From: Antedon mediterranea | Taxonomy: Eukaryota > Echinodermata > Crinoidea > Comatulida > Antedonidae | Assembly (NCBI RefSeq): GCF_964355755.1 | Contig: NC_092678.1 | Span: 22,920,365-22,984,364 of the forward strand | Direction: 5' to 3' | DNA: 64,000 bases | Notes under the pieces: model-generated | Told to the model about the DNA's origin: nothing | Database searches by the model: none | The model's input: the letters and a program-made list of their open reading frames with translations, nothing else | Shown: positions 1 through 61,500 of the stretch, in pieces | Numbering within the stretch: the first letter of the stretch is position 1 | How the letters are laid out: every line of letters begins with the position of its first letter | Program-made: the position numbers and the translations under genes

Positions 1-2252
1 CGTGACTGAAATTACGAGACGCCGTTAGCGCCCGTTGAAAAATGCATTAACAAAGCTAAAAACCTACAAAACTAATAGTTTATACAATGATTTAAATATA
101 GTTTACAATAAATTGTATAATAAAATACATAAAATATAGAGAAAACTCAAATATAAACTAAAATATTTACAGATATGTGTTTAAAAATGTACAAATCAAA
201 ATGGCCTTCCATAAAATAAAGTGCGCCCTCACGAGTCATACTTTTATCGGACTTGTATGGAATGGTTATACAAGGCATTAATATACGAAACCCGATGCGA
301 TTTGTTAGTTATTGCCTCTGCAAGAGGCAGAATATTATATTTTCACAAATATATTTCTATTTTTTATCATGGAAAAAAGGATTGTATATATTTAAACACA
401 TTACAACCTCCAGTCTACCATCATGATGGATTAAGTAAATTGCGCCGTATTGTATATCTGCTAAAGCGTAATGATCTCCTAGTTAGGGCCTATCTACCTA
501 GTTTTATTCTGGACATTCTTTTTTTTCACAGCATTACTTGCGTGGATATCACAATGCATTGTATATTCGCGATTATAGTCAATGTTAATTTGAGTGAGAA
601 TCATTTTTATATGACAGTCCATTTCGCGTATACGATTTAAATGAATAAAGTCGTCTGAAATATTTTCTTATTGGTTAATCCTTGTGATTGTTAGTTTTGT
701 TTAAGTTTCTTTGAATTGATTCATCCATATCGTATGATGTGTGAGACAATTTCGTCTTTTAGAAAATGTAATCCTGCCACCGAATATTCTTTATGTTTGA
801 GACGTCTGACGGATAACTTTGTTATTCTTTTATGTTTAATAACTAATCTTCATCTTCACTTTTTGGGACAATAGCCTACATCTTTTAAGTTTAAAACGTC
901 ATTTATAAGCAATTGAATAAGCCAACAAATTAAACTACAGTGTTCTTCCAAGCTTTATAAATATTATTCAAATTCATTAAAATGCGTCGGACTCGGCGGA
1001 AAACAATATTTGAAATAAATGTATATAAAAAGTTTTTTGTGGACTTTACTTTCTCGTCCCAAGTTAGAACTTTCAGGTCAGGCCGTGGAGGTGAACCAAT
1101 CGTTTATGACATGCTTTTGTGTATAAAATGTCCAATAATAATTATCATTGTAGGACTACTCTCCACCAAAAAAACTTTATAATGTATTTATTACGTCACG
1201 TCTTAAAAAAAGGAGAATTGGGTAATACAGTATGTTGTCGTTTCTCGCGAATCTTACATCACACTCCCACATCTCACTCTCTTTTATTTAGTGAAATGTG
1301 AATGGTGGAAAAACGGGAAAATACGTTAACTTTAGAATACTTTGAATTCTGGAAGACGACTTCGAACTTAAAGAATCGTCATGAATGACGTTTATTGGCT
1401 CAAACTTCACACATCGGTACGATGTGGAGGCCAGACGGATTCAGAGAGGATCAAACCGGCAACTCCTCCTCATTGGCAGTGGGGGAAGTGGTTGGTGGTG
1501 GCGGGTGAAAAGAGAAAATGAAAAATGTTGATTTAGACGAATCCCGACCAGCCCCTTTGATACGCTCTAAATAATTGTAGGAAAGTGAAAGGCCTACTTG
1601 AGGTAGTATCTTCGTATAGGCCTACGCGTAATTGATTATCCTTAAATGATTGGTTCTTACTCTAATTAAGATTATAATCGCGAATGGCAGTTCAAAATAT
1701 GCAATGCATTGTGATATCCACGCAAGGAATGCTGTGGAAACAAAAATGTCCAAAATAAAACCAGCAGAACTAGTAAATCATTACGCTCCAGCAGATATAC
1801 AAATATACACTTTATCCATCATGATGGTATACTGGAGGTTGTAATGTGTTTAAATATATACAATCCTTTTTTCCATGATAAAAAATATAAATAAATTTGT
1901 GAAAATAAAATATTCTGCCTCTTGCGTAAAAAAAAGGCAATTACTAATAAACCGCATCGGGTTTCGTACATTTATGCCTTGTATAACCATTCATATACAA
2001 GTCCGATAAAAGTATGACTCATGAGGGCGCACTTTATTTTATGGAAGGCCATTTTGATTTGTACATTTTTAAACACATATCTGTAAATATTTTAGTTTAT
2101 ATTTGAGTTTTCTCTATATGTTATGTATTTTATTATACAATTTATTGTAAACTATATTTAAATCATTGTATAAACTATTAGTTTTGTAGGTTTTTAGCTT
2201 TGTTAATGCATTTTTCAACGGGCGCTAACGGCGTCTCGTAATTTCAGTCACG
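1..2252. mobile_element. Large foldback DNA element with ~0.6-kb terminal inverted repeats
   Basis: The first ~620 bases reappear as reverse complement at about 1640-2252. The outer 250 bases of the two arms are nearly identical; the inner parts (for example 300-580 against 1670-1980) carry more indels. The outermost visible bases read CGTGACTGAAATTACGAGAC on the left and their complement on the right. About 1 kb of unique AT-rich sequence lies between the arms. No transposase frame is visible, and the 139-codon frame at 221-640 lies inside an arm and has no recognisable product. The left edge coincides with the window edge, so the element may extend further left and no target duplication can be read. 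It is probably a non-autonomous foldback/MITE-like DNA transposon. Confidence 0.85.
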
Positions 2253-2489
2253 CTTCGTCGCATTCGCTGTACACAATAATACGACATGAGGTGGTTATAA
2301 ATTAGGTATAAAAGTCTAATTTTCTCGTAAAATCCCAAGTTTTGCAAGACGCAACATCAAGAAATGTTATTACCTATATACATAGAACCTACGGGTGAAA
2401 TTTTATTAGGGTACGTTCTTATACCATGGTGAGGGTGATTTTTGCCTGGACTATATTTGTTTACATTGATTTGGTGGCGTGCCGCATTG

Positions 2490-3085
2490 CCTACTGGGTA
2501 ATCCGCTTGCCGGAATGGCTGCCGCGCCCATCAAAGATTATATAGCGCCGCTACGCGGCGCAAGATAGGTAACTGTTGCCAAGCTCCTATCTTATAACAC
2601 TACGCGCCCAGTAAATCCATGGACGCCATTCGGGCGGACAGGTTATTATTGTGATTTAAATGTAAATGGTTTAAATGTTGCGGTCCGCCTCGAAGTATCT
2701 GTGGTTAACCATCTTTATGTTTGATTCATGGAAAAGGGAAGAAATTATGTAAACAAAGTAAAATAAAAGTTTCTTTGGGATCTGGACACTTTCCGATTAA
2801 TTCTGTGTGTTTACATTGATGTGTTTGGTTAGACAACTTCGTTCTTTAACCGAAACATCGTGGATATATTGCCTTGACAACGACTTTATTCCGGTTCAAA
2901 CTTGTCCGCCGGAATGGCGTCCATGGATTACAAAGGTCTCACCCAGTTACCTATCTTGCGCCGCGTAGCGGCGCTATACAATCTTTGCTGCCCATGCAAT
3001 TATCATTTTTCGAGCGTCAGTTCCATATCTTGCGAGTGGCGCTATACGGTCTTTGGTACAGCGTACAGAAGTACTTGCAGCAAAG
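2490..3085. repeat. Second inverted-repeat (MITE-like) element
   Basis: Bases 2541-2641 (GCGCCGCTACGCGGCGC, then a block containing AAATCCATGGACGCCATTC) reappear as reverse complement at 2903-2980, with about 260 bp between them. A diverged echo of the palindrome follows near 3030-3050. The arms are GC-richer than the surroundings. No coding potential is recognised. Confidence 0.65.
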
Positions 3086-5560
3086 AATATTGCGCGCGCG
3101 TGCGCTAGTACATTATAAAGTTCGATTGATTGATTTTGGAACGAAACATCCCATAACTACGTCCTATTAATTAATAACAATTATGTAATATTGTCAATTC
3201 ATAATGCATGCTTTGATGACTAAATAAAATAATAAAGTGTCGTGGATATATTTGTTAATATATTGAATAGGGTATGAACAATATTAAATTAATAAAGGAA
3301 AATTATTACAAATGAATTGATGAACGAGTCTCTGAAAGTTTGTGTCAAAAACACACAGAGAGCCATATACTGTATAAAAAGAGGGGTGAATTTGTGTGTT
3401 TTTTGTATTGGTTCATGCTTTGATGTATTCTGACTTGCATGTAGGCCCTAGCATTTATTCTTTTGTTATTATAGACACAATATATATATGCTACCAAATT
3501 AATACCATTAATAAAATTAATTACTAAAATAAAAACGGAATATAAGCGTTATTTCATAGACAAAAAAATCTAAAAATAATGCATGAACTATAGGAAAACG
3601 CTATACAAAAGAGACGCGCGCGCCCTCAGCGTGCGAATTCTTTGACACAAAAATGGCTTCTAATTTTCAATGTCGTAACTCTCTCTATATATGGCTCTGG
3701 TTGGCGCGTGTGAATACTGCCCTCAAAATGAAATGAAAATGACGTCCTTTGAAAACGTCCTTGATTGTTTTTACAAATTATCCGTTGTTTTTTACTTATT
3801 TATTATTGTTTAACTTGACTTTTATGAAAATATGGTTTAGTTGTTTTTTTCTATACTATTTGTTCGTTGTAGTTTTTTTTGTTTGTTCGTTGTTTTTTGA
3901 CATTGTTTTTAATTTTTACTATTAAGGCCCTAATTATTTCAATTTCAATTAAAATAATTTTTTTTTTTATTGTCTGGTCTAGTAATCCTAATAAATTATT
4001 GCTCTACTAATGTGAAAACTAACGTTTTAAACTGACTGTCAAATTCATGGCTGTATGGTTATGAAATTGTTAATTCATTGTTAAGTTACATCACCTGCGG
4101 CTTCTTCAATTTTTCTAATGAACCCGGTAGGCTTATTCAGTATTATTTGTGTTATCGGCTACAGTATAGAAACTGGACCGACGTATTTGTCCTTTACACA
4201 AAGTTTAAAGTCTTCTTTTATGGTTAAATTATTTTGAGAATTGGCCAACAAAAACAAGACTGAACAGTTTAATAATGTTTAAGTGAACCTGAAGAAATTA
4301 TGTAAATAGTCGGTACCTTGACAACGGGCACATTTTGAAAATGTTTAATCGTCTATTGATATGCTTAATTGAAGCTCAACAATAACGCATTCTTTGTGAC
4401 AGTGTGGTACTTCGCAGAGTAGGGAAATCATAATATTATCAGTAAGTTTAGCGATTTGCTTAGAGAATTGGCCATTTGAAACGAAAACAAGACTATGAAC
4501 TAAACCAATGTAAGTAAATAATGTTCAAATGAACCTGAACAAATTGTATAAATAGTCGGTCGGTTAACAACGGGCACTTTTTGAAAAACACAAACCAACC
4601 AACTAAACCATTTGTTAGAACGTCATCGATCGATTAATATATTGACTATCATTATATTGAAGCGCACACACAAGACACCCCATCACAATATGGGACAGAT
4701 GTAACTGTCACCATATCAAATCATATCTGCTGTTTTCGGAGAATTATTGTCAATAAATCAATTGCATGATTTATAAAATTAACACGTCTGTTGGCGTGTT
4801 TGTCCACCGTACTATGGGAATAAACAAAATTATTACCAATTCATCCATTGTTTTTGTGTTGGCCTACTCTTTCTCACACCTAAAAGCAGATACTTCTTTC
4901 AAATGAATTTAATATGACGTCATGCTTATGTGTTTTAGTCAACATAACTTTTGATAGATTGTTGTTGAAAGTAATATACATTATAACATGACATTGTCAG
5001 AGGTTATTGTCAGAAATATTTGTATTCTGTAACTATAGCAAATCGATCAAATTTTGAGATAATTTTTATTGATAAAAATCAATTATTAAGCAATTATCCT
5101 GCAAACTGTGTATGCCATTTCCATTAACTATGAAGCAATGTTGATCCGTAAAATATACAAAAAGTCATTTGTACAAGCAACCATATTTTGTGCAAACATT
5201 TCGCCCTTAAAATGTGCAAAAAAACAACCATGGGTGATGAATTCCTACAAATTTTTTTCCACTCTGCTTCAATGAAATATATTATTATAATACAAAATTA
5301 CATCCAAAAAAACTTTTTTAATCAAAGGCATTGTTATAGTTGTCAATGTTAATAGGCCTATGACGTAATTAAGACGTTATTCCAAGATGAATTATGTCGT
5401 TCATTATAATTATTGTTTTCGTTAGCATTACATTTTGCAACAGTACCGCTAAACTGTAGAATTTGCAATGTTTAGGCCTATTGGTAGCCTTAAAAAATGC
5501 CAAATTTAATTTCCAGGTTTACCTATTGAATTTAAAACCAATACAAAACGTAACGAAGCA
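3086..5560. other. AT-rich non-genic stretch with one imperfect tandem repeat
   Basis: I see no gene here. The only structure I can support is an imperfect direct repeat: 4237-4340 and 4464-4585 both run from AGAATTGGCCA through AATAGTCGGT to CAACGGGCAC. The rest is AT-rich with short homopolymer runs. Confidence 0.6.
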
Positions 5561-5689
5561 TAAATGCAATGCATATGTTATTTAATCAATGCCATTGCGA
5601 TGCAAAACGAATTGTATACGGTAGGTTGTTTATTTAATATTAGTACACCTTTTATATTATTATTATACTCTTATTCAATACCTTTATGG

Positions 5690-5860
5690 TTTTCTGCCGT
5701 GGTGCAGATGCATGCCAGGTCCGACATTATATCGAAGGCTTTACTTCAACAAAGGCGAATTTATTTCTCATGGCGCTAAAAACACCGTATATTTATGAAT
5801 TGGTGTTTATGCCCTTCGACGAAATAGTATAATATCAGACGCTCAAATAGTTTTGAAAAG
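5690..5860 (+). repeat. Dispersed NLR-flank repeat, copy 1
   Basis: This block contains GTGGTGCAGATGCAT, AAGCGAAT-like and TTTATGCCCTTCGACGA segments. They match copies at 17273-17440 and 17646-17821, and more weakly 29790-29890. It probably marks an old segmental duplication rather than a gene; the short frame at 5564-5779 differs between copies. Confidence 0.6.
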
Positions 5861-5914
5861 AAAATGACACAAGGAATATGAAACACTTCATTAAAATGTT
5901 GAACAATTCCATTT

Positions 5915-6035
5915 TTAGTCGGATGCAACGCGACTCTACAGCTTACTATGTCGGTCAGTTGGTCGGTCGGTTGGTCGGTCGGTCGGTCGGTTGGTCGGTC
6001 GTTAAACACTAACTTGTATATGGCCTTGTCTTGAT
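5915..6035 (-). repeat. Dispersed repeat carrying a (CGGT)n microsatellite, copy 1
   Basis: The order is GCGACTCTACAGCTTACTATG, then about 55 bp of GGTCGGT/GGTTGGT units, then AAACACTAACTTG. The same unit in the other orientation is at 14085-14190 and 57460-57550, so the microsatellite is an internal part of a dispersed element. The antisense frame TDRPTDRPTDQ is a translation of the microsatellite, not a protein. Confidence 0.7.
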
Positions 6036-6599
6036 ATCAGTTTCATGTAGCTAAGTCCATTTTTCACAGTATATTCCTTATGGCCAGGAATCGATGTGGT
6101 TATGTTTTCACGGTGCGCAATCAAAAATTACGCGGTCTACGCACGATTTAACGAAATCACGTTTGTAATCATATCTTCAGAAGCATGAATCACAATTAAA
6201 TCAAATTTGGTACTCATAAATTTCAGGGCATCAATCATCATGGCAATACAATTATGTGCGTAGCGCATGTAACGCATGCGTACGCGCGCTTAACATTTTC
6301 AAAATGTTCAACATTTTTTTCGATGAAATAAGAGTCGTTTTAGAAATTTTAAGCGGTTAAAAAATTGCCATGAGTGCGCAGATTTTTGCACGCGCACTGC
6401 GCGTTAAATGTTAATATGCACTTTTTTTGCCCGATTTCTGTTTTACAGCCTTTCTTTAATAATATCATCATATTTGATTTACTTTTCAACTCGAAATTAC
6501 GTTATACGAGCACGTCAAAAGTGACAGGCTACGCACGTGCAAATTTAAAAATATAAATGTTTTTAAACATTTTCAACATTTTTTTATGTTCAGCAATTT

Positions 6600-18163: not shown

Positions 18164-18877
18164 TCATACGATAGTTACACCAAAGGGCTGCACAATACAG
18201 TAAGATCTAAAGAGACAACATTTAACATTGGTAGAGTATTTCATAAATTTGCGATTGAGTGAGTTGCTTCTAATACATAAAGATCTGTACTGACTTTGAA
18301 TGTCAGCCTCATCACTGCAATCACACATAAGACACAAAGATCTGTACTGACTTTGAATGTCAGCCTCATCACTGCAATCACACATAAGACACAAAGTTCT
18401 GTACTGACTTTGAATGTCAGCCTCATCACTGCAATCACACATAAGAATATGACCAAAGTAGGTACCTTTCTCAACATAAGCAAGTTTTTTACCAAAAAGT
18501 TTAGTAATAGAATTACATTCAAGTTTGCAAGTGCGAGGAGAGAAACGCATACAAACAGATTTCTTATCATTAAATAAAACATCATTCTCTTGCGAAAATT
18601 CTTCACAAACATGTACCAATTGCTGGAGACCAGCAACTGAAGGGCCAAGTAGAACAAGATCATCCGCATAACTAAGATGATTCAAGATAATGTTTCTACA
18701 TTGGCAACCCTGGCACAAACCACTTAGTCTACAATTAAGAGTACTAATATATATGTTATAAAGGAGAGGGGACATAACCCCACCCTGTCTAACTCCATTG
18801 GATACTGTAAATGCATTTGAAACAGAGTTTCCCCAACGTATCACAAAACTTTGTTTCTCATACCAACATTTGAGCAA
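18164..18877 (-). pseudogene. LINE-1 reverse-transcriptase fragment (YADD)
   Basis: This 237-codon open fragment carries GVRQGGVMSPLLYNIYI and SYADDLVLLGPS, the central RT motifs. It contains three in-frame copies of a 19-residue unit (MCDCSDEADIQSQYRSLCL) produced by a 57-bp DNA triplication. The C-terminal part of the RT continues in another frame at 17907-18167 (NIRSLNVCYNNALRRIL), and the N-terminal part continues beyond 18877 with frameshifts. Confidence 0.8.
18281..18448. repeat. Three 57-bp tandem units within the LINE-1 RT frame
   Basis: Units start at 18281, 18338 and 18395 with the words AGATCTGTACTGACTTTGAA, the third with AGTTCTG. They are almost identical. Because 57 is divisible by three, the RT frame stays open on the coding strand. 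Confidence 0.95.
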
Positions 18878-49500: not shown

Positions 49501-52500
49501 ACTTTATTAGTGTTTATCAACATACAAACTTTTAAACAATAAGAAGATTGTTACTTTGATGAAATTAAATTATCTTATATTGATGTAGTTTAGTGAAAAT
49601 ATTAACCTAATTTTTTGCAAATCAATTTGTTATATAGACTTTAAATTGCGATAAGATAATATGTGCCAAAATAATTATGTTTACAGTACAGAAACAATCC
49701 TTAAGCTCTGTCTACACAATCAGTTTGTTTGATGTGTCCAAATATGGTAGTGATATGCTCAAATATGGTAATGACATGACATCATCATGTCCATATATGG
49801 CCACATCACATTTTTTTGTCACGTAATGTTTGATAGTTTAGACAGGGCTTTACAAATAGTGTTAGTTATGTTTATGTCTCATACGTAGATAAAAGAACTA
49901 GTAGACGAACCAAGGCACCATTCAAACTGAAGAAAATTGCAAATACTATCGACGAATGTCCAGCTGTAAAAGGTGAGTTTTAAAAATAGTGGTGTTTAAT
50001 GTGTAGAAATAAATGTGTGAAGTGACCATGCATGTGTAGGTAAAGTTTGATTGAGCTTGGTTCCCACTAGGACGCAATGAATGATGTAAGCACAACACAA
50101 GCAAATTGACCAATCACAATCTAGCTAATCCGTCTCTTTCTGATTTGTGAAGCATCACACTTATCTTGTTGCGTTGCGTCCTAGTGGAAACCAAGCTTTA
50201 AAGTAAATAATGTAAAGCAAGCACAAACAGTTACAAAATCTAAAGCTTGGTTCCCACTAGGATACAATGCAATGTTGTAGGAGCACAACGCAATTGAGTT
50301 AACCAATCACAAGCAAGAGTTTAGATGATCCATAGCGATTGGTCAAATTACTTGCAATGCACTTGCGTCATTGCATGTTCTATAACTTCATATTATATAG
50401 ATGCAAATAACAGTTATTTCTGTTTTTAGAACTTTTTTCTGCAATTGTTCCTGACCTTAGCATTCTTCCTCGTGGTTTTAATGGTAGTCTTAGAGCTGTT
50501 GGACGGGGTTTAACAGGTTGGTTGATGCATATTTAAATTACTATTATCATTGCTTATTATTGTTTTCTTGTATACTATCATTAAAAATATTAAAATTATT
50601 TTCATTGATAACTTTTTCTGATTGGTTTTTAGAGAATGGAGTATTAGCATTCCTTGTTAAAATTATGAATATGACGATTGAAGATTTCGAGGCGACAGTT
50701 GACTTGCATAATATTGTATCAACAAAATTACAAGATGTTATGATGTCATTTGCTAAAAAATATAAAGATAAGGTTAGCATTATTTAAGCCTTGTTCTACA
50801 CTATCAAAAAAGTTTGATGTGCCCATATATGGTAGTTTTATGCCTAAATATGGTAGTGCTATGTTTAAATATGGTGGTGATATTCCCAAATATGGTAGTG
50901 ATATGACATCATCATGTCCATATATGGGCACATCAAATTGTTTTGACACATAAAGTCTGATAGTGTAGACAAGGCTTTTCAATGTTCTTGCATGCAATAC
51001 TAGGTCAATATAATTAAAATATCTAACTTCATGTATACAACGTTTTATGTTGTAAAATTGATGCTAACAGTATAAAATGAATTTCTACAAATGCATCTAG
51101 TATTGTCATGAATTTATTAAATTATGTTCATCTAGTTATCGTATGATTTAAGAAATACAACATTACATTTTCAAAATTCTTTAGCATTTGCCTTTTTTCT
51201 TACACAACCATATTTTATTCTTTTTGTAAAGTTGGTCAGTAAAATTGACGATAAGTTTAGCGACATAGTGGAGAAGATTTTACTTGCCAAAGATTACCGT
51301 TTCAAGACATGCAAAACAAAGACATCACGACCAGATGCATTCTTTAGTCTGCTTTGGCCTTTGCTTTTAGGTGGTATGGTTCCAATGAGCTTTGGTAAGT
51401 CAACATTGTTTTGTAACTATTCTTTTTTTTTTATTTCATACGCATCCAACAGTGGGTGACTTGCCAATTACAGGATGGATAAACTATTTAATACTTTATC
51501 ATGCTTATTTGAGGCTTAGGGAGTGGAGTTGAAAGAGTCGTGAGTTACAACCCTGGCACTAGGTCAGGATTGAACCCCGGACCTTAGGATTGGAAGGCAA
51601 GCACGTTAACCACCAAGCTACAGCTCCATAATCTCCCATGTAATATAATGCATAGAATTATGACCTACTTACATCTAAGCTCGGGTATCCTCAGTTCTAG
51701 ACTAGTTGAAAAGCAATTGAAATACTAAAATTGTGCGTCCTGTATTCTGCCAAAACAACGATAAAATAAGATTTACATTTTTTTTAGAATCAGTGACTTA
51801 TACATAGCTTGCCTATACATAGTGTTTGTGTTTTTTTGCTTCAGGTTTTTCATCATATGGATATGTTGAACCAGGTATATGTGTCGATATGAACGTCAAC
51901 AAGTTTAGAGCTTCTGTAAGTACATTTATATACTGTATCACTTGTGCCCATGAAAATTGACAGCTCTGGACCTACGAATATTCTGATGTGGTATAAAGAC
52001 ATTGCTTACTTGATCTCTTAGCTTTAAACCTTTGTGAGAGGCGTGGGTTTGAGACCTGTTTGTGTCATATTGCTTGTATACTTGTGCAAGAACCTTTACT
52101 CTCATAGTCTTTCGGATGGGACGTAAAGCTGTTGGTCCTGTGTACAGAGAATGCACTGTAAAGAACTTGTAGTACACTAATCGAAAAGAATAGTCTTCTG
52201 GTATAGTCATATAATAATATGATACTGTGGCTACTGTGTGTTAATAGAGGACCTAAAGCTCTGTCTACACTATCAAACTAGTTTGACAAAAAAAAGTGTG
52301 ATGTGCCCAAATATAGTATTCATATGTTCAAATATGGTAGTGATATGACATCATTTTTTGTCGCATAAAGTTTGATAGTGTAGACTGAGTTTAATACAAA
52401 TTTTCTCAGTGTCCTGTTTAACTAATCCCAGACTACTTTGTGTCAAGAAATGTTTTGAAATAAAAGTTTGCTGGGAAATTTTTGTTTAAAAACTACTTTT

Positions 52501-55500
52501 TTAACTTGCTTACATTTGTCTGTTTTTTAAATGATTTGTGACTGGTACGTTATTTTATTTATAGGTCTATTGTTTATACTACCCTTTTAGAATTAAAAAA
52601 AAATGTGATGTGCCCAAATATGGGAGTGATATGCCCAAATATGGTAGTGATATGACATCAACATTTCCATATATGGGAACATCACATAAAGTTGATAGTG
52701 TAAACAGAGCTTTATTTATTTAAAGGCTGAATTGATTGTATCTGGTGGATCAAGATCGATTGGCTCAATATCAGTTGGCTTTGGTCTGTATGCCTCAATG
52801 GCGTTGATAGGAGATATCTTAAATGTTCGTCTACCAATCGGTATTGAAATTCAGTTCTTCAGAGCACCACAGCGAAGGTAATATTTGTAAAATATAGAGA
52901 TCTAATTGTAGAATAGCAAGCAATCTGATTTGCAACTACACCAATGTCATTAATCAGTTCTGTTAAATGCGCTTTAGGAACATTATAAAGATTTCATTGA
53001 CAGAAGGAGATGGTAATTTATACATTAGATTAATCTGAGCACAAGCCCAGTATAAACAAATAATAATAAATTCATTATCGGGACTGTTTATTTAATATTC
53101 ATCCATCATCTACCATCCTGAAAAGTTTAGTTAAAATATAGGATATGTATGGCTACCGGTGTGTGCAAACTGTTCGTGGTACTATAGTTTTGACACTATA
53201 CCAAATTGTTTTAATTTTTTTTATTCAAGTTGTTTATATTATTAATTTTCTGGTGAAATTGTTTCTCTTTATGTTTTTTGTATATTTTGATTGTTGGGTC
53301 ACATGGAATGCAATAGTCTGCACTATTCTCTTGACGTTATATTAATTCATCGTAGTAGATTAGTTTTATTCATTTTAAACACAGCTAAATATATTCATGT
53401 CATCGAATGTTGGTCACATGGTGTGCAATATTCTGTACTATTGCATGCTCTTGAAGTTATATTAATTCATCATAGTAGATGAGTTTTATGCATTCTCATT
53501 CTTCTAGATTGTACGTTGATATTGAACTTATTCCCCTGACACTTAAGCTGGACACTTATATTGAAATGGGATTCAGACGATTTAAAGTAAAAATCTTTAA
53601 GGCCAACCTCTGGCAGTACCAAACCGCATCTCACAGAGGAACTCTTTGGGATAAGGTTACGAAAAAGGAAACAAAAGAAAGGCCTTTTATTGACAAGGTA
53701 AAGCCCTGTCTAGACTATCAAACTAGTGATGTGCCCAAATATGGTAGTGATATGCTTAAATATGGTAGTGATTGTGTCCATATATGGGCACATCACATTT
53801 TTTTTCCACAATAGTGGGGTTCACATGGAACTATGTCTAGAAGAAGTGGATTCAAATAGAAATAATGTGCAAGGTTGAATAAATAATAAGGAAATATTTG
53901 GCACTGGTTTCTATCAAAAGGGAGATGTAATTGTTTGTAGCTACTGTGTGGTAGCTTTGTGTCAGAGTAATTTGTTCAGTTGTTTGCCTGTTGGTGCAGT
54001 ACCTGCTGCTTATTTGGACTTGAATCTAACCCCTAGTGCAAGCTCGGTGGTCTAGAGGTATGAACACCAGGCTAGAGATCTAGAGGGCGTGGGTTTGAGC
54101 CCCACCCAAAAATTACTTGCAAATTTTACTTGGTATAAAGTACAAATTCACACAGCAATCATGTTTATAAAAAGTCAGAATCCAATTTAATGATAAAAAT
54201 CTGATTTAAAATGAAGTGTGACAGACCTAGAAATGGTTGTGTAAAAATTAAATAATGTGAGTTGGCAGAGATAGTATAGTACAGTATAATAGTCCCAGTG
54301 AGACTGTGGGTACAGGATTTGGTGAAAACTATTTGGTGGAAGTATACTCATGTGGCATTAACAATTTTGTGTCAAAATGGGATGGCATGGGGTTATATTC
54401 ATTCATATACTGTAATTTATTTTATGTGTCTGATAAATGTTCTCTAAAGGTGTTCAGTAGAAACGACCAAGATTCAGCTGATGTAGCTATAGCGTCATCT
54501 CAAGCAGAGTCTACAGGCTGTGTTGTGAAACAGGTTATTGGTCGTGACCACACTGATCCCGCATTTGAACTGGTGTTCCTTGCGCATGACAGTCTCAGTG
54601 AACTGGTTTACACGTTGGATATTGGAACGGTTCCTGGAGGAAATGATGTTGTGTCAGATATGAAGCTTGGAGGCACTGTGACAACTGCAAATATAGTAAG
54701 ATTATTTTTTAAGATAATTTTTAGTTTGATGATTTACAGTTAGAATGATCAGAGAAGAGTGACTTATTGACTAGATGACTATAACAACAACACTAATACC
54801 CTTTTCACATCTGCATAAATTGTTACAACTTGTAACCAGGTTTGATCTCCCGATTTATTACTTGTTTTCATACACGCATATAACCCTGAGAAATCTCTGA
54901 AGGAAAGCGTAGTTGCACGCTATTTGATTACTATGATTGGTCAGTTTAATACCAGGGCAATACATGAACGCGCGCAGTAACTCGAAACATCTCGGAACAA
55001 AAACAGGCTTCTCATCAGTGTATAAAATTGTATTCACACTATGCAAACCTGGTTACAACTTGTTACATTTTGCAGTTACCAATTTTTTGAAGTTACCAAT
55101 TTTTCCATCAATATATGCGTCAATAAACACTTGCTGTTTTACATTATTTCACATTCAAAGAGCATATGCATTTATATTACATTTTAATGTTACTTAATTA
55201 CAGGACATGACGGGTGGAGTACCATTACATTTTACTGTGAAAGTTACAAATAACGAAGGTTTAGAATCAACAACATCTTGTAGCATTCATACCTATGATG
55301 TCACTCTGCCTGCCGGTCGACTGACTCCTGGGTTTTTATCTACAAGTCGTCCAGATATTCTTCGCTGTTCTACGTTGGTGTTTGACGATTCGGAAACTAC
55401 AAGTTTGAAAGAGGCCGTTGGATTTGGTCCTGGAGAATGGGGAGAGCAGCTTGTGGGTTGGGATGAACCTGATGTCACATGGGTCGAAGCTGATGCTGGT

Positions 55501-58500
55501 AAATACATAACTAATACGTGTAATCATTATTAATAACGTGTCTTGATTCTAATATATATAGGTTTGGAAATTTTAATATTTAGTTTTAAAATTTTACAGC
55601 ATAATATTCAGTAAATCTGAATCTAATAATTACAACAATTAAATCAAGTAAGATTAAAAGCACACACGCTTGGTAAAATACCGTCATACAAGTTAGAACA
55701 GGTTGACTCTTTATTATAACATTTTAACATTAATGTGATTTTAAATTTTTTCATTCTAATTTAGCCAACCAGTTTCCAAATTTGGAGTATTTCTCAATCC
55801 CCCAACTTGGTCGCCTGGTTTCACCTCCAGTTGATTCCGTCACCAAGCAGTACCCAGATGCATGTGCCGCAGAATGTCTCAAACTGCCAACCACAAAATG
55901 TAGAAGTTTTAATTACAATATGAGAGATGGAAAGTGTGAACTATTGGAAGAATTGGAAGGTGATGGTGTGGTGCTGCATCACGTAAGTTGAATTAATATT
56001 TCTAGGAAATATACATCTGTAATTAGGTGTCGATTATATACAGGCAGACCCATCTCAACACTTTCTCTTGTTATGCCTTCTGTCATTTTCCATTGTTATT
56101 AATAAAAGTTGGTAGTAGTATTTTTAATAATTGTAAGAAGCCTTTCCTGTAGGAGTGCTTATGTAGGCTTGTATGTGTTCAAACCATTGCAAGGTTTCTA
56201 AACAATTGTAGACATTTTGGAATTGAGTAATTATGCTAATGATACCAAAAGTAATATGTTCTTATATTATTATAGTATGGCGATTTCTATCACTATGAGC
56301 GTCTAGGGCTAGGCCTAGCCACCGACTACACCCACAATGGGCTAGACATGAAGCACAACAACCTGCATTACTTTAACATAGAGGCAGTCAACTCATTAGG
56401 CTACAAGAACATCTTGACTTCTCTTCCAATTCTGACTGACTTTACTACACCAGAACCAGGTCCCATTCAAAACAAACAGCTTGATGTGACGTCACATGGA
56501 ACTTGCATCCTGTTGACGCCAGAAGAATGGGAAGGCAGATGTGTGGAGGAAACGTTCCTATCAAACAATCGGTAATGTTTTTAAACACTACAAAATTTGT
56601 AAACTTTTTTATATGCTTATTTTATTTCTAACATTGTTTATATGTAAGTGCCAAATGAAATCAACTTGTATAAAGCATCACAAAAGTATACACTGTTCTT
56701 GCATAGAGTAGTTAGCTGTAGCTATCACAATGCTATTTAGCATGTAAGCATGTGCGGTATGCTATCACAATGCTGTTTAGCATGTAAGCATGTGCGGTAT
56801 GCTATCACAATGCTGTTTAGCATGTAAGCATGTGCGGTATGCTATCACAATGCTGTTTAGCATGTAAGCATGTGCGGTATGCTATCACAATGCTGTTTAG
56901 CATGTAAGCATGTGCGGTATGCTATCACAATGCTGTTTAGCCTGTAAGCATGTGCGGTATGCTATGTTCTACCAAGGCAATCTAACAACAGGACACTAAG
57001 CGTGCCATGCCAAGATAGGAACTTGTAACAGTCCTTAGATCTTCTGTCTGGCTGCAACAAATATACCAACAGTGCTGTACTATGTACACACTCTCTGTGG
57101 TGCTCTGTGTTTGTTAAGGGGCGTGGAACTGATCATGTCGCAGCCACAGATAAACCCTTTGATCTCTAGAGCTCAGCATCCTGTGCTGTACAGTGCATTC
57201 TTACTGTATAACAGTGACAAATCATACTTACAGATAGGATATTGATATATTAATGTGTGTTTTTGCCTCTTATAGGACAATCATTGATGGCAAAGGCTCA
57301 ATGACTGTGTTCAATGGTCATACACCACTTGTTGATGAAAGATGGACTAGAGCTAATAGGTATATTGCATGTAAGTCACCCAAATTCATTATAGTAACTA
57401 AAACTAAAAGCAACAAGCTGATGTTTTTACTACTAATGTGAAAACTAACAAGGCCATATACATGGCTGCAGTCGCGTGCTCAAATTTGAGTTAGTGTTTA
57501 CCTACCGACCAACATAGTGAGCTGTAGAGTCGCGTTTAAACGTGACTAAAAAGCAACTCAATTTCTAAAGACCTAATTGTTGTAGGGAATTTTGAAATCT
57601 TTTTGAAAAGTCCCTAAAAATATAATAAATACAAAATTCATACACAGCTGCCTTGTATGTGCTCATGAAATAATATTTTCAACAAGTACTGTAATTTCAG
57701 TATCCATAAAAACTCATAATCCTCATCGATAAACCATGTCGAGTTGAGTGGCCAAGCGTTTAAGACAGGAGCGGCGCAAACCATAGCTATACAATGGGGC
57801 ACAGGTTGAAGTCACTCTTCGACTATTGTTCTGGTGGTAGAACATCTTCTTGGATAAGTACTTAAAACTGAAGGTCCAGTGTCCACATCTGGCTTGTGTG
57901 AACCTGGTTCATCTTTCGGAGGAGTAGAAGGTTACCCCGCCGGCCCACCCCAGTGCACTGGTCCATTCAGCCACTTAGATGGCAGTACTGGACACAAAGT
58001 CAGCCTGCAAGTCACAGGTTATTACCCCACATTTATATATTACCGTACTGACGCGGGTATAAGCCCACCCCCCTCGAACATGAAATCACGTCAAGTTTGG
58101 GGGGTGGGCTTATACCCGAGGATCCAAAAATGCAGATCGTCAAAAACAGCACGAACACTGTGTATTCCACCATGCGAGCGAGCGCCCTCACGTGTACGAC
58201 GTTGCCTCTAAACTAAATACACGAGGTGTAGAGTGTCGGAAAATTAAGTTTATAGTTCGTGTAATTTATCGTAGAATATCTTATTTTAAACATCAATTTA
58301 ACACGAATTTATCAAGCAGAAAAGCAAGTATACAATGTTCGTTACATAGAAATGTACCAAAGAAATTTAATAAGCTTGTTTATGGCAGCCGATACCAAAT
58401 AGTGGTTTTCCGTTTTGGCGACTTGTAGCGTCGTGTGTGAAGCGATCTTCGACCGCGATGGAGTGTAAACAAAACAGGACCGCTAGGCCTCATATGGCCT

Positions 58501-61500
58501 AGCGTATATTAGCCTAGCTTGGTTATGATCAAAGGTAGGTGTATTCGGTGTATGGACGTCGCCAAATACAAAATAATGTATTACGACACACACTGTAGAT
58601 CTTCGAATTAATGGGTGGGCTTATACCCGAGTGCCTCATTTTTCTTGAAAATTAGTCAAAAGTCGGGGGTGGGCTTATACCCGAGTATGGGCTTATACCC
58701 GCGTCAGTACGGTAATAAATAAATCTAACTGTCATTTCAGCAAATTGGGATGGAATCCATGATGATGAAACAGGAATATTTGGGTACACGTGGTCAATTG
58801 GTCATTACCCCTGTGATGACATCATACATCATCATCATGATCCTCATGCTCACCTGTTCGACGAATCAGAATGGACACATATTGGACTAGTCAATGGCCT
58901 CATGCTACCAGGTGAATAAAACATTTTTACATATCTATGATTTTATATGAATGTATACTATATATTTGTATAACTGTTGTACATAAATTTTAAATGTTGT
59001 TTTATATACTGTATTGTTGCCTGAGGGAAAACATATTTCAATTTATTATAATTTGACAATAAAGTAGTTATGAATCTTGAATTTACTAATAATTAACACA
59101 TACATTTTCCAAATAAAATAGTTTAATAGATATTTAAGAGATATTGTATTTATTTTTCCTGTTATATATTATATAATTCAAAGCACAGGAGGAAATTAAC
59201 AGTTTCTAATACTGTACTGATTTTTAGATTAACTACAGGACTATTTTTATAGATAAATATTAATGATACTTTATTAATTAATGTTTCTTAATTATTTCAG
59301 ATTATGATTATTACATCACAGTGAGAGGACTAAATAAAGTTGAATTTGGTGGTCCACTCTCATTGACCGTTTGCCATTCCATTCCTCTTGTTATTGACAA
59401 CACGTTTCCGTTTGTTAACGATATATTTGACATTGAATACAATGAGGTGTTGGAAGAAGTATCAGTGTCATACAATGTAAGGTGTGTATTATGTAACTGC
59501 ATGAAAAAGGTTTTAAAAATAAAATCATCAACATTTTTTTAAAGAGAATTTATACTTAAAGATATATTTCCCCTTGAAAAAATATATTTTTAAAATGTTT
59601 TTGTTGACAATGCCATTTGACTTATTTGCCCTCCAGCAACACATCTTTTTTGTATATATATATGTGTGTTTATTGTTACTTAATTATCATATTCATTTTG
59701 TGTGGAAAATCAATAAAAACAAAAAAACAAAAAAAACTGTCACATATTATTATTATTCCCTTTATTGTTATACTAGATAAAAACTGTAATTTACGCAAAC
59801 AATAAGTCAGTGAGTTTTTGGTTGAAATTAACTGTTTATTTTTTTTTTTTATAGGTGAAAAATTTTTTTATAGTTTTTTTTTCTGTAGAAGTGATCAATT
59901 TTATTACAAAATTCAAAGCCTTTTTTTATTTTTCTTCATTTTTCATGTTTTTGGGGGACAATATATCTTTAAAATGTCTTTTTGTAATGTCAACAAACCC
60001 TTGTTTATTTTGGGTTTTTTTACTCCTATTTAATTCTGATGTTTACTTATTTTGTTTTTATTGACCCTTAATTCTGGTAATTACATTTATTTTGTTTTTG
60101 AGACCCATTTCTAAAATTTAAATTTATATTGTGTCTTACCTTAATTTTCAAATTTAAATTGATTTTGTTTTTAGTGACCCCATTTTCTGAAATTTAAATT
60201 TATTTTGTTTTTATTGACCTTTATTTCTGACATTTACATTTTTTTTATTGACCCTTTCTAAAATTTGTATTTTGTTTTACCATAATTCTAAAATTTAAAT
60301 TTGTTTTGTTTTTATTGACCCCAATTAAAAATGTCAATTTATTTTTGTTTTTAGTGATCCTAATTCTAAGATATTTGTTTTGTTTTTAGTGACCTTAATT
60401 CTGAGATATTTGTTTTGTTTGTAGTGACCCTAATTCTAAGATATTTGTTTTGTTTTTAGTGACCCTAATTCAGAGATATTTGTTTTGTTTTTAGTGACCA
60501 TAATTCTGAGATATTTGTTTTATTTTAAGCATGGAGAAATAGTCTCCATGTTTTAAGTGACCCAAATTCAGAGATATTTGTTTTGTTTTTAGTGACCTTA
60601 ATTCTGAGATATTTGTTTTATTTTAAGCATGGAGAAATAGTCTCCATGTTTTAAGTGACCCAAATTCTAAGATATTTGTTTTGTTTTTAGTGACCTTAAT
60701 TCTGAGATATTTGTTTTATTTTAAGCATGGAGAAATAGTCTCCATGTTTTAAGTGACCCAAATTCTAAGATATTTGTTTTGTTTTTAGTGACCTTAATTC
60801 TGAGATTTTATTATATTTTGTTATTAGTGACCATAATTATTATATTTACATTTATTTTGTTTTTAGTGACCCTAATTCAGAGATATATGCTGTTGATATT
60901 GGGATAGGAGAGGGAAAATACGATGTTTACCTTAAAGAATGGGAGAGATACTTTGACCACAACACTTCTGTAGTTCCATACAAACTTATTGACGGTGTGC
61001 CAGCCTGGATGCAGATAAGAGCCATAAACAACGGTAATTTGTTTATATATTTGTTTCTAATTACTAATTTAATTGTATACAAAATAAGTAATAATCATTA
61101 ACCATTACTATTACAGTCAGACTGCTTTTAGGTTCTTTATATACAAATTGTTTCCCGACACTAAGTATCATTTCAAGGTTGTGTTTGAAGCAAGGAGAAG
61201 TGGAATAAATATTTTACATCTCCCTCGTTTGAAGAGTATAAAACTGTGCAATTATTTCTTATTTTTATTCATTTGTTTTTCTTTCTGATTTCAGTTGATC
61301 TTCGTTTAGTGGACCACGCTAACTCACCATTGATTGTTGACTTCAGTCCTCCTGTTCAAGGTCAGTTCAGGGATGGCTTTGACCTGGGTGTGGACAGTGA
61401 TTATGAGTATGATGTGACAAAGGTATGCATGCGATTTTTATGTTTTCTTTTCTGTCTCAATTTCTATTTTAAGGGATTTGGGACAATCTGCTGATTGTTG

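Follow-up and report, generated by a model that had tools for sequence, protein, structure and literature searches.

Tandem Repetition of an Intron-Exon Boundary Beside a Predicted Exon of the Crinoid Antedon mediterranea

In the crinoid Antedon mediterranea, a predicted intron was found to contain, directly upstream of the exon that follows it, an array of 20 tandem units whose junctions span 60062–60828, each of which joins a copy of the intron end to about 20 bases of the exon start (table 1). Positions refer to the window, i.e., the whole stretch of 64,000 nt that was analyzed (contig NC_092678.1, forward strand). The array is a boundary minisatellite ("mirage"), which is a known type of structure and not a new kind. 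The most probable reading, to which we would give a probability of roughly 0.8, is that this minisatellite is neutral and that its last acceptor, at 60866, is the one normally used.

Table 1. Predicted exons, the boundary array, and its internal blocks, with positions in the window.
Feature	Positions	Strand	Basis or remark
Upstream exon (exon 47 of the first-pass annotation)	59301–59481	+	Open frame and splice dinucleotides; predicted
Intron	59482–60866		Predicted boundaries; 1,385 nt
Downstream exon (exon 48 of the first-pass annotation)	60867–61033	+	Open and in frame with upstream exon; end set by eye
Real boundary: acceptor TTTTGTTTTTAG and first 20 exon bases	60855–60886	+	AG at 60865–60866
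Array of tandem boundary copies (20 units in the intron)	60034–60866	+	TRF and unit alignment
Older block, eight diverged units of 27–41 nt	60062–60354	+	49–68% identity to the exon boundary
Younger block, four 35-nt units	60355–60494	+	Perfect match (32/32) to the real boundary in the unit with junction 60460
Higher-order block, 98-nt repeat (63 + 35 nt)	60495–60788	+	Three copies by hand parsing
Two 39-nt edge units, in frame and open	60789–60866	+	Second clearly diverged; preceding acceptors end at 60788 and 60827
21-bp palindrome (60530–60550) between 7-bp direct repeats TTTTAAG	60523–60557	+	
Further copies of the insert (palindromes)	60628–60648 and 60726–60746		

The main donor predicted for this intron is AG/GTGTGT after 59481, in phase 2. 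A competing donor, AAT/GTAAGG, ends at 59476, 5 nt upstream of the main one (GTAAG/GTGTGT), and only the second of these paired donors at 59477–59483, i.e., 59481, is in frame with the native acceptor. Splicing to 60866 is in frame with the upstream exon and, as judged by eye, with the next exon as well; the native junction translates as SYNV/SDPNSEIYAVDIG. The coding sequence of the downstream exon begins with S/DPNSEIYAVDIG, and its 3' donor is GTAATT. A Pfam scan of this exon and of four joined exons revealed no convincing family, the only hit being Phage_Cox below the cut-off. When the exon protein was compared with its own genome, only the self-match was detected (one candidate scored).

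To describe the array, we used the 32-nt sequence of the real boundary, TTTTGTTTTTAG/TGACCCTAATTCAGAGATAT (12 intron and 20 exon bases), which is presumed to be the source of the repeats. At least 24 of its 32 positions are matched at 13 places in the window, the exon itself counted, and all of these places lie within the array; one copy inside the intron, at 60448–60479, is perfect (32/32). The best match elsewhere in the window reached 20/32 on the plus strand and 21/32 on the minus strand, and 200 introns simulated with a first-order Markov model contained no place with at least 24/32 (best 22/32). The proposal of the first-pass annotation that the acceptor and exon start have been tandemly amplified directly upstream of the exon at 60867 is well supported by these counts. 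The array had been placed at 60060–60866 and described as a microsatellite. Its end agrees with our analysis, but its start lies further upstream (60034 or 60047 according to TRF, with a weaker copy from 59996), and with unit lengths of 27–41 nt, mostly 34–41 nt (63 nt where a palindromic insert is present), it is a minisatellite.

Counting that of the exon, 21 unit junctions were placed by hand, and the sequence from 16 bases upstream to 24 bases downstream of each was aligned. Given the predicted boundary, a unit is composed of approximately 15–20 nt of intron end and 20 nt of exon start. TRF reported overlapping rows over the array with periods of 35, 39, 40, 98, 133, 141, and 196. A search of the crinoid's own genome with 155 array bases returned seven matches, all of which fall in this intron and the exon start (one candidate region scored). 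When up to three mismatches were allowed, a boundary pattern of 27 nt was found at 12 places in the whole genome, all in the array or at the exon, compared with five for the reversed control. Insertion of a dispersed repeat beside the exon was also considered and is not supported, copies being found only here by a search that skips very common words.

Several other repeats were observed in the window, which holds 15 local direct-repeat clusters, two of them within the array. A 40-bp minisatellite at 56721–56965 has 6.1 copies with 99% matches and is likely recent and variable. A 57-bp tandem triplication at 18271–18446 lies within a minus-strand frame that resembles reverse transcriptase by eye, and similar 21-bp repeats (containing CAAATATGG or a close variant) are present at 49739–49778, 50815–50905, 52308–52347, 52605–52654, and 53724–53787.

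Comparison of the units revealed a divided internal structure. From 60355 on there are 12 units, with lengths of 35, 63, or 39 nt and 70–93% identity to the exon boundary; three of them are preceded by the insert, which accounts for part of the lower values. The best unit by identity (junction 60460, 93%) is located 407 nt from the exon, and units 60390, 60593, and 60691 are mutually identical across the aligned stretch. On the other hand, the exon-adjacent unit (60828) is only 72% identical to the exon boundary, and the closest other unit reaches only 75%. Across all 20 units, identity to the exon was negatively correlated with distance (Spearman rho = -0.63, P-value = 0.003), whereas the 12 proximal units showed a correlation in the opposite direction (rho = +0.51, P-value = 0.09); the overall trend is thus due to the eight old units upstream (junctions 60062–60316). 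Smooth decay away from the exon, as had been described earlier, is therefore absent within the proximal units. An AG is present at the junction of all 12 younger units but at only two of the eight old ones, four of which carry the same AT and may derive from one event. Judging from the alignment, the array can be read as a young center with older edges.

TRF assigned 3.8 copies with 97% matches to the 98-nt repeat, at 60451–60819, and the copy number of this block could be wrong in the assembly. The broader idea that mis-assembly created the copy number or the whole array appears extremely unlikely. It would fit the high similarity of this block over 3–4 copies, and in the accessible text on amphioxus, haplotype 1 of BflGb6 is likewise said to have looked aberrantly assembled in the draft (PMC3087553). 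Most units of the present array, however, differ from each other (49–93% identity to the exon boundary), which would not result from repeated mis-assembly of one unit.

There are 51 AG dinucleotides between the donor and the exon start, the native one included. With donor 59481, three of them are open through the exon, namely 60866, 60827 (+13 codons), and 60788 (+26 codons), and the remaining 48 upstream AGs run into a stop codon. According to this analysis of predicted frames, more than one acceptor would give a translatable mRNA. The first-pass annotation was correct that the intron offers decoy AG acceptors followed by exon-like sequence, as is evident from the boundary matches, the unit alignment, and the frames, but its statement that only the last acceptor stays open does not hold. 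With the alternative donor 59476, one upstream AG (60804) is open, and one of the two exonic AGs tried with this donor (60880 and 60882) is open as well, that at 60882.

These frames raise the possibility of alternative acceptor choice, in which 60827 and 60788 would yield isoforms with 13 and 26 additional residues and selection would maintain the frame. Such a scenario draws on the fact that, with the main donor, these are the only two of 50 upstream AGs that are both in frame and open, and on the open AG at 60804 with the other donor. The naive chance that both exon-proximal acceptors are in frame is 1/9, and simulated random 26-codon extensions with the composition of the array lacked a stop in 11% of cases. 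We nonetheless regard it as unlikely: the test was picked after the result was seen, the tail of the exon-adjacent unit resembles the older, longer class so that its length need not have been retuned, and the added residues (e.g., DHNYYIYIYFVFS) are AT-driven, with an insertion that would fall in a shared motif.

This motif is found at the exon start, which encodes D-P-N-S-E-I and fits the pattern D-x-x-[ST]-x-[IM] of five other motifs in the gene region; those five were selected by a pattern that itself requires D-x-x-[ST]-x-[IM]. Of the nine matches to the motif pattern in window frames, five are elsewhere in the gene region; the other four come from reading the array in frame, and one of them continues into the exon. 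When four junctions were scored with a profile of the five motifs, the native junction received 6.3 bits, the +13 form 4.9, the +26 form 4.4, and the 59476–60882 junction -0.6. The native junction thus leads by 1.4, 1.9, and 6.9 bits, respectively, the first margin being small. By hand count, the distance from D-x-T-x-P to DPNS is 29 residues in the native form versus 37–38 in the next two domains, so that the +13 form is compatible with domain length.

Over the 12 bases at the intron end and the 20 at the exon start, the decoys are nearly equal to the real site, so that no local feature explains why the last acceptor would win. Of the 20 next junctions, 13 have a candidate branch site (yTnAy, a weak motif) at a distance of 15–45 nt upstream; for the 15 junctions with AG, the count is 11. 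The real acceptor has its own candidate, TTTAC, at 18 nt, and seven units carry a candidate CTAAT or TTAAT in the exon-derived half, 26–31 nt before the next AG. A rather improbable extension of these observations is that a near-complete acceptor module (candidate branch site, U-rich tract, and AG) was amplified and that the frame of the exon-proximal units has been preserved, free of stops. If so, growth of the array would keep creating potentially working acceptors, and acceptor slippage would insert 13 or 26 residues while leaving the message intact, making the array a generator of length-variable protein or splice variants.

The direction of copying, from exon to intron, is suggested by the coding motif. 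Since D-P-N-S-E-I fits a motif that is present in five other places, the exon start was probably coding before the array formed. The reverse course, in which the repeat was intronic in origin and the exon start was later taken from the array as the acceptor slid into a unit, is very unlikely. In its favor, the in-frame translation YFVFSDP of the array tail likewise agrees with the motif pattern, and the exon boundary has the character of a typical unit; against it stand the five occurrences of the exon-start motif elsewhere in the gene region and the alignment, in which the units diverge from the exon after about 20 nt.

The 63-nt unit equals a 35-nt unit plus 28 bases, i.e., the palindrome CATGGAGAAATAGTCTCCATG and a second TTTTAAG. 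Allowing up to two mismatches, we detected the palindrome at 25 places in the genome, three of them in the array (10 for the control). The pattern CATGGAGA-N(3-30)-TCTCCATG, which reads alike on both strands, had 326 genome matches per strand versus six for its reversed control. Eight palindrome sites were inspected (L005–L012), comprising all seven outside the array with at most one mismatch and one of 15 with two; by eye, 7-bp duplications flank the palindrome at six of these eight sites, whereas the duplication is only approximate at L005 and absent at L010. Among 50 palindromes listed of the 326 matches, tip lengths show peaks at 13 nt and at 17 nt, with 88 of 100 tips no longer than 17 nt, and two tips account for the whole palindrome in 32. 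In the palindrome of the window, the tips cover 20 of 21 bases. When folded as RNA, the 98-nt unit scores better than its 200 shuffles (z = -4.3), and the palindrome forms the main stem.

After excision, P-type transposons leave a footprint in which two element tips form a short palindrome flanked by a target duplication of 7–8 bp. P transposase cuts with a 17-nt stagger, and for this reason the tip lengths fit a footprint. The insert has the same arrangement, a two-tip palindrome between a putative target duplication. In addition, a 6,097-bp element (positions 67–6163 of locus L034) has identical 32-bp ends, which are those of the palindrome family, and a 7-bp target duplication, GTTTGTG. One of its three scanned frames matched TNP-like_RNaseH_C (9.4e-09), and the other two had no Pfam match. 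We take TNP-like domains to be P-type, and this element would then combine the ends of the palindrome family with a fragment of a P-type transposase. L035 contains a shorter element that shares these ends. An open 794-aa frame for a TNP-like transposase is present at 881–3262 of L036, and such frames score equally at three places (C1, C3, and C8), possibly as recent copies; neither CATGGAGA nor TCTCCATG was found within 5 kb of the frame of L036 (the C1 copy). Among the elements inspected (L034 and L036), no intact transposase with footprint-family ends was found. Judging from their sequence, the palindromes appear to have been left by excision of a P-type DNA transposon.

We propose the following history for the neutral boundary minisatellite. 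A segment comprising the 3' end of the intron and about 20 of the first coding bases of the next exon would have been duplicated in tandem, and slippage or unequal exchange would have expanded it into a minisatellite on the intron side. The original unit was probably 39–40 nt long, and a 35-nt variant may later have dominated the center. A P-type transposon would then have inserted in one unit and left the 21-bp footprint, after which the 98-nt block containing the footprint would have been amplified to three copies, whereas the edge units would have escaped homogenization. This order of steps, from old units to 35-nt units, the visit of the transposon, and 98-nt amplification, is what we infer with the help of the footprint. 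The exon copy may have been fixed because it is needed both as acceptor and as coding sequence. Decoys might be tolerated since the two nearest would only lengthen the product by 13 or 26 codons, whereas all others would lead to a premature stop and mRNA decay; tolerance of the array could result jointly from the location of the real site beside the exon body, from exon definition, and from elimination of frameshifted products.

In this intron a dozen similar acceptors follow one another, several of them near-identical to the real one, which provides a natural setting in which to study spliceosomal choice among equal sites. Repeats of this boundary-spanning type are rarely reported, and the present case probably extends boundary minisatellites beyond Branchiostoma. 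The coamplified footprint also helps to order the steps of array growth.

A related arrangement is reportedly present in the human 6-16 gene (IFI6), where minisatellite units with a splice-site consensus are located at an exon edge and several donors are used; that repeat multiplies the donor, whereas the array described here multiplies the acceptor. In human paralogues, variable internal tandem repeats at an exon-intron boundary can alter intron structure, at least in the portion of the report that could be consulted (PMC2812944); in those cases exon-contained repeats become novel introns, whereas here the repeats sit in an existing intron. Intron gain by tandem genomic duplication around splice signals has been described for potato RdRp in the accessible part of another report (PMC4974935), and our array differs from it in that no new intron is evident and one existing 3' boundary has been multiplied.

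In a literature search on boundary and acceptor arrays, which mostly covered papers outside subscription, the only close matches were two reports on amphioxus (PMC3087553 and PMC3902484). One of them, in its accessible part, notes similar tandem repeats over splice sites in lancelet PGBD5 and also cites Adh and TnC; the PGBD5 array is an imperfect 3 x 108 bp, and its unit size differs from those observed here (PMC3902484). The other describes mirages as minisatellite-like tandem duplications of intron-exon boundaries in Adh3, the globins BflGb6 and BflGb9, and other loci, for which RT-PCR suggests regular splicing and which were proposed as a route to new introns, as far as its available text goes (PMC3087553). 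The same text reports concerted evolution within clusters, with homogenized units, the edges being excluded, and splice signals in many units (PMC3087553). A copy number that is unstable among haplotypes or somatic cells is a further characteristic of mirages. The crinoid array likewise has a tandem unit that spans a predicted intron-exon boundary, with homogenized central and diverged edge units, and its arrangement of 3' intron end and 5' exon start is also present in BflGb6, as far as that source describes it (PMC3087553). BflGb6 is given there as 3–6 units of 150–160 bp and Adh3 as units of 10–72 bp, compared with 20 units of mostly 34–41 nt here. Unlike the amphioxus mirages, the array of A. 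mediterranea has a palindromic insert, a putative transposon footprint, embedded in it and coamplified with its units.
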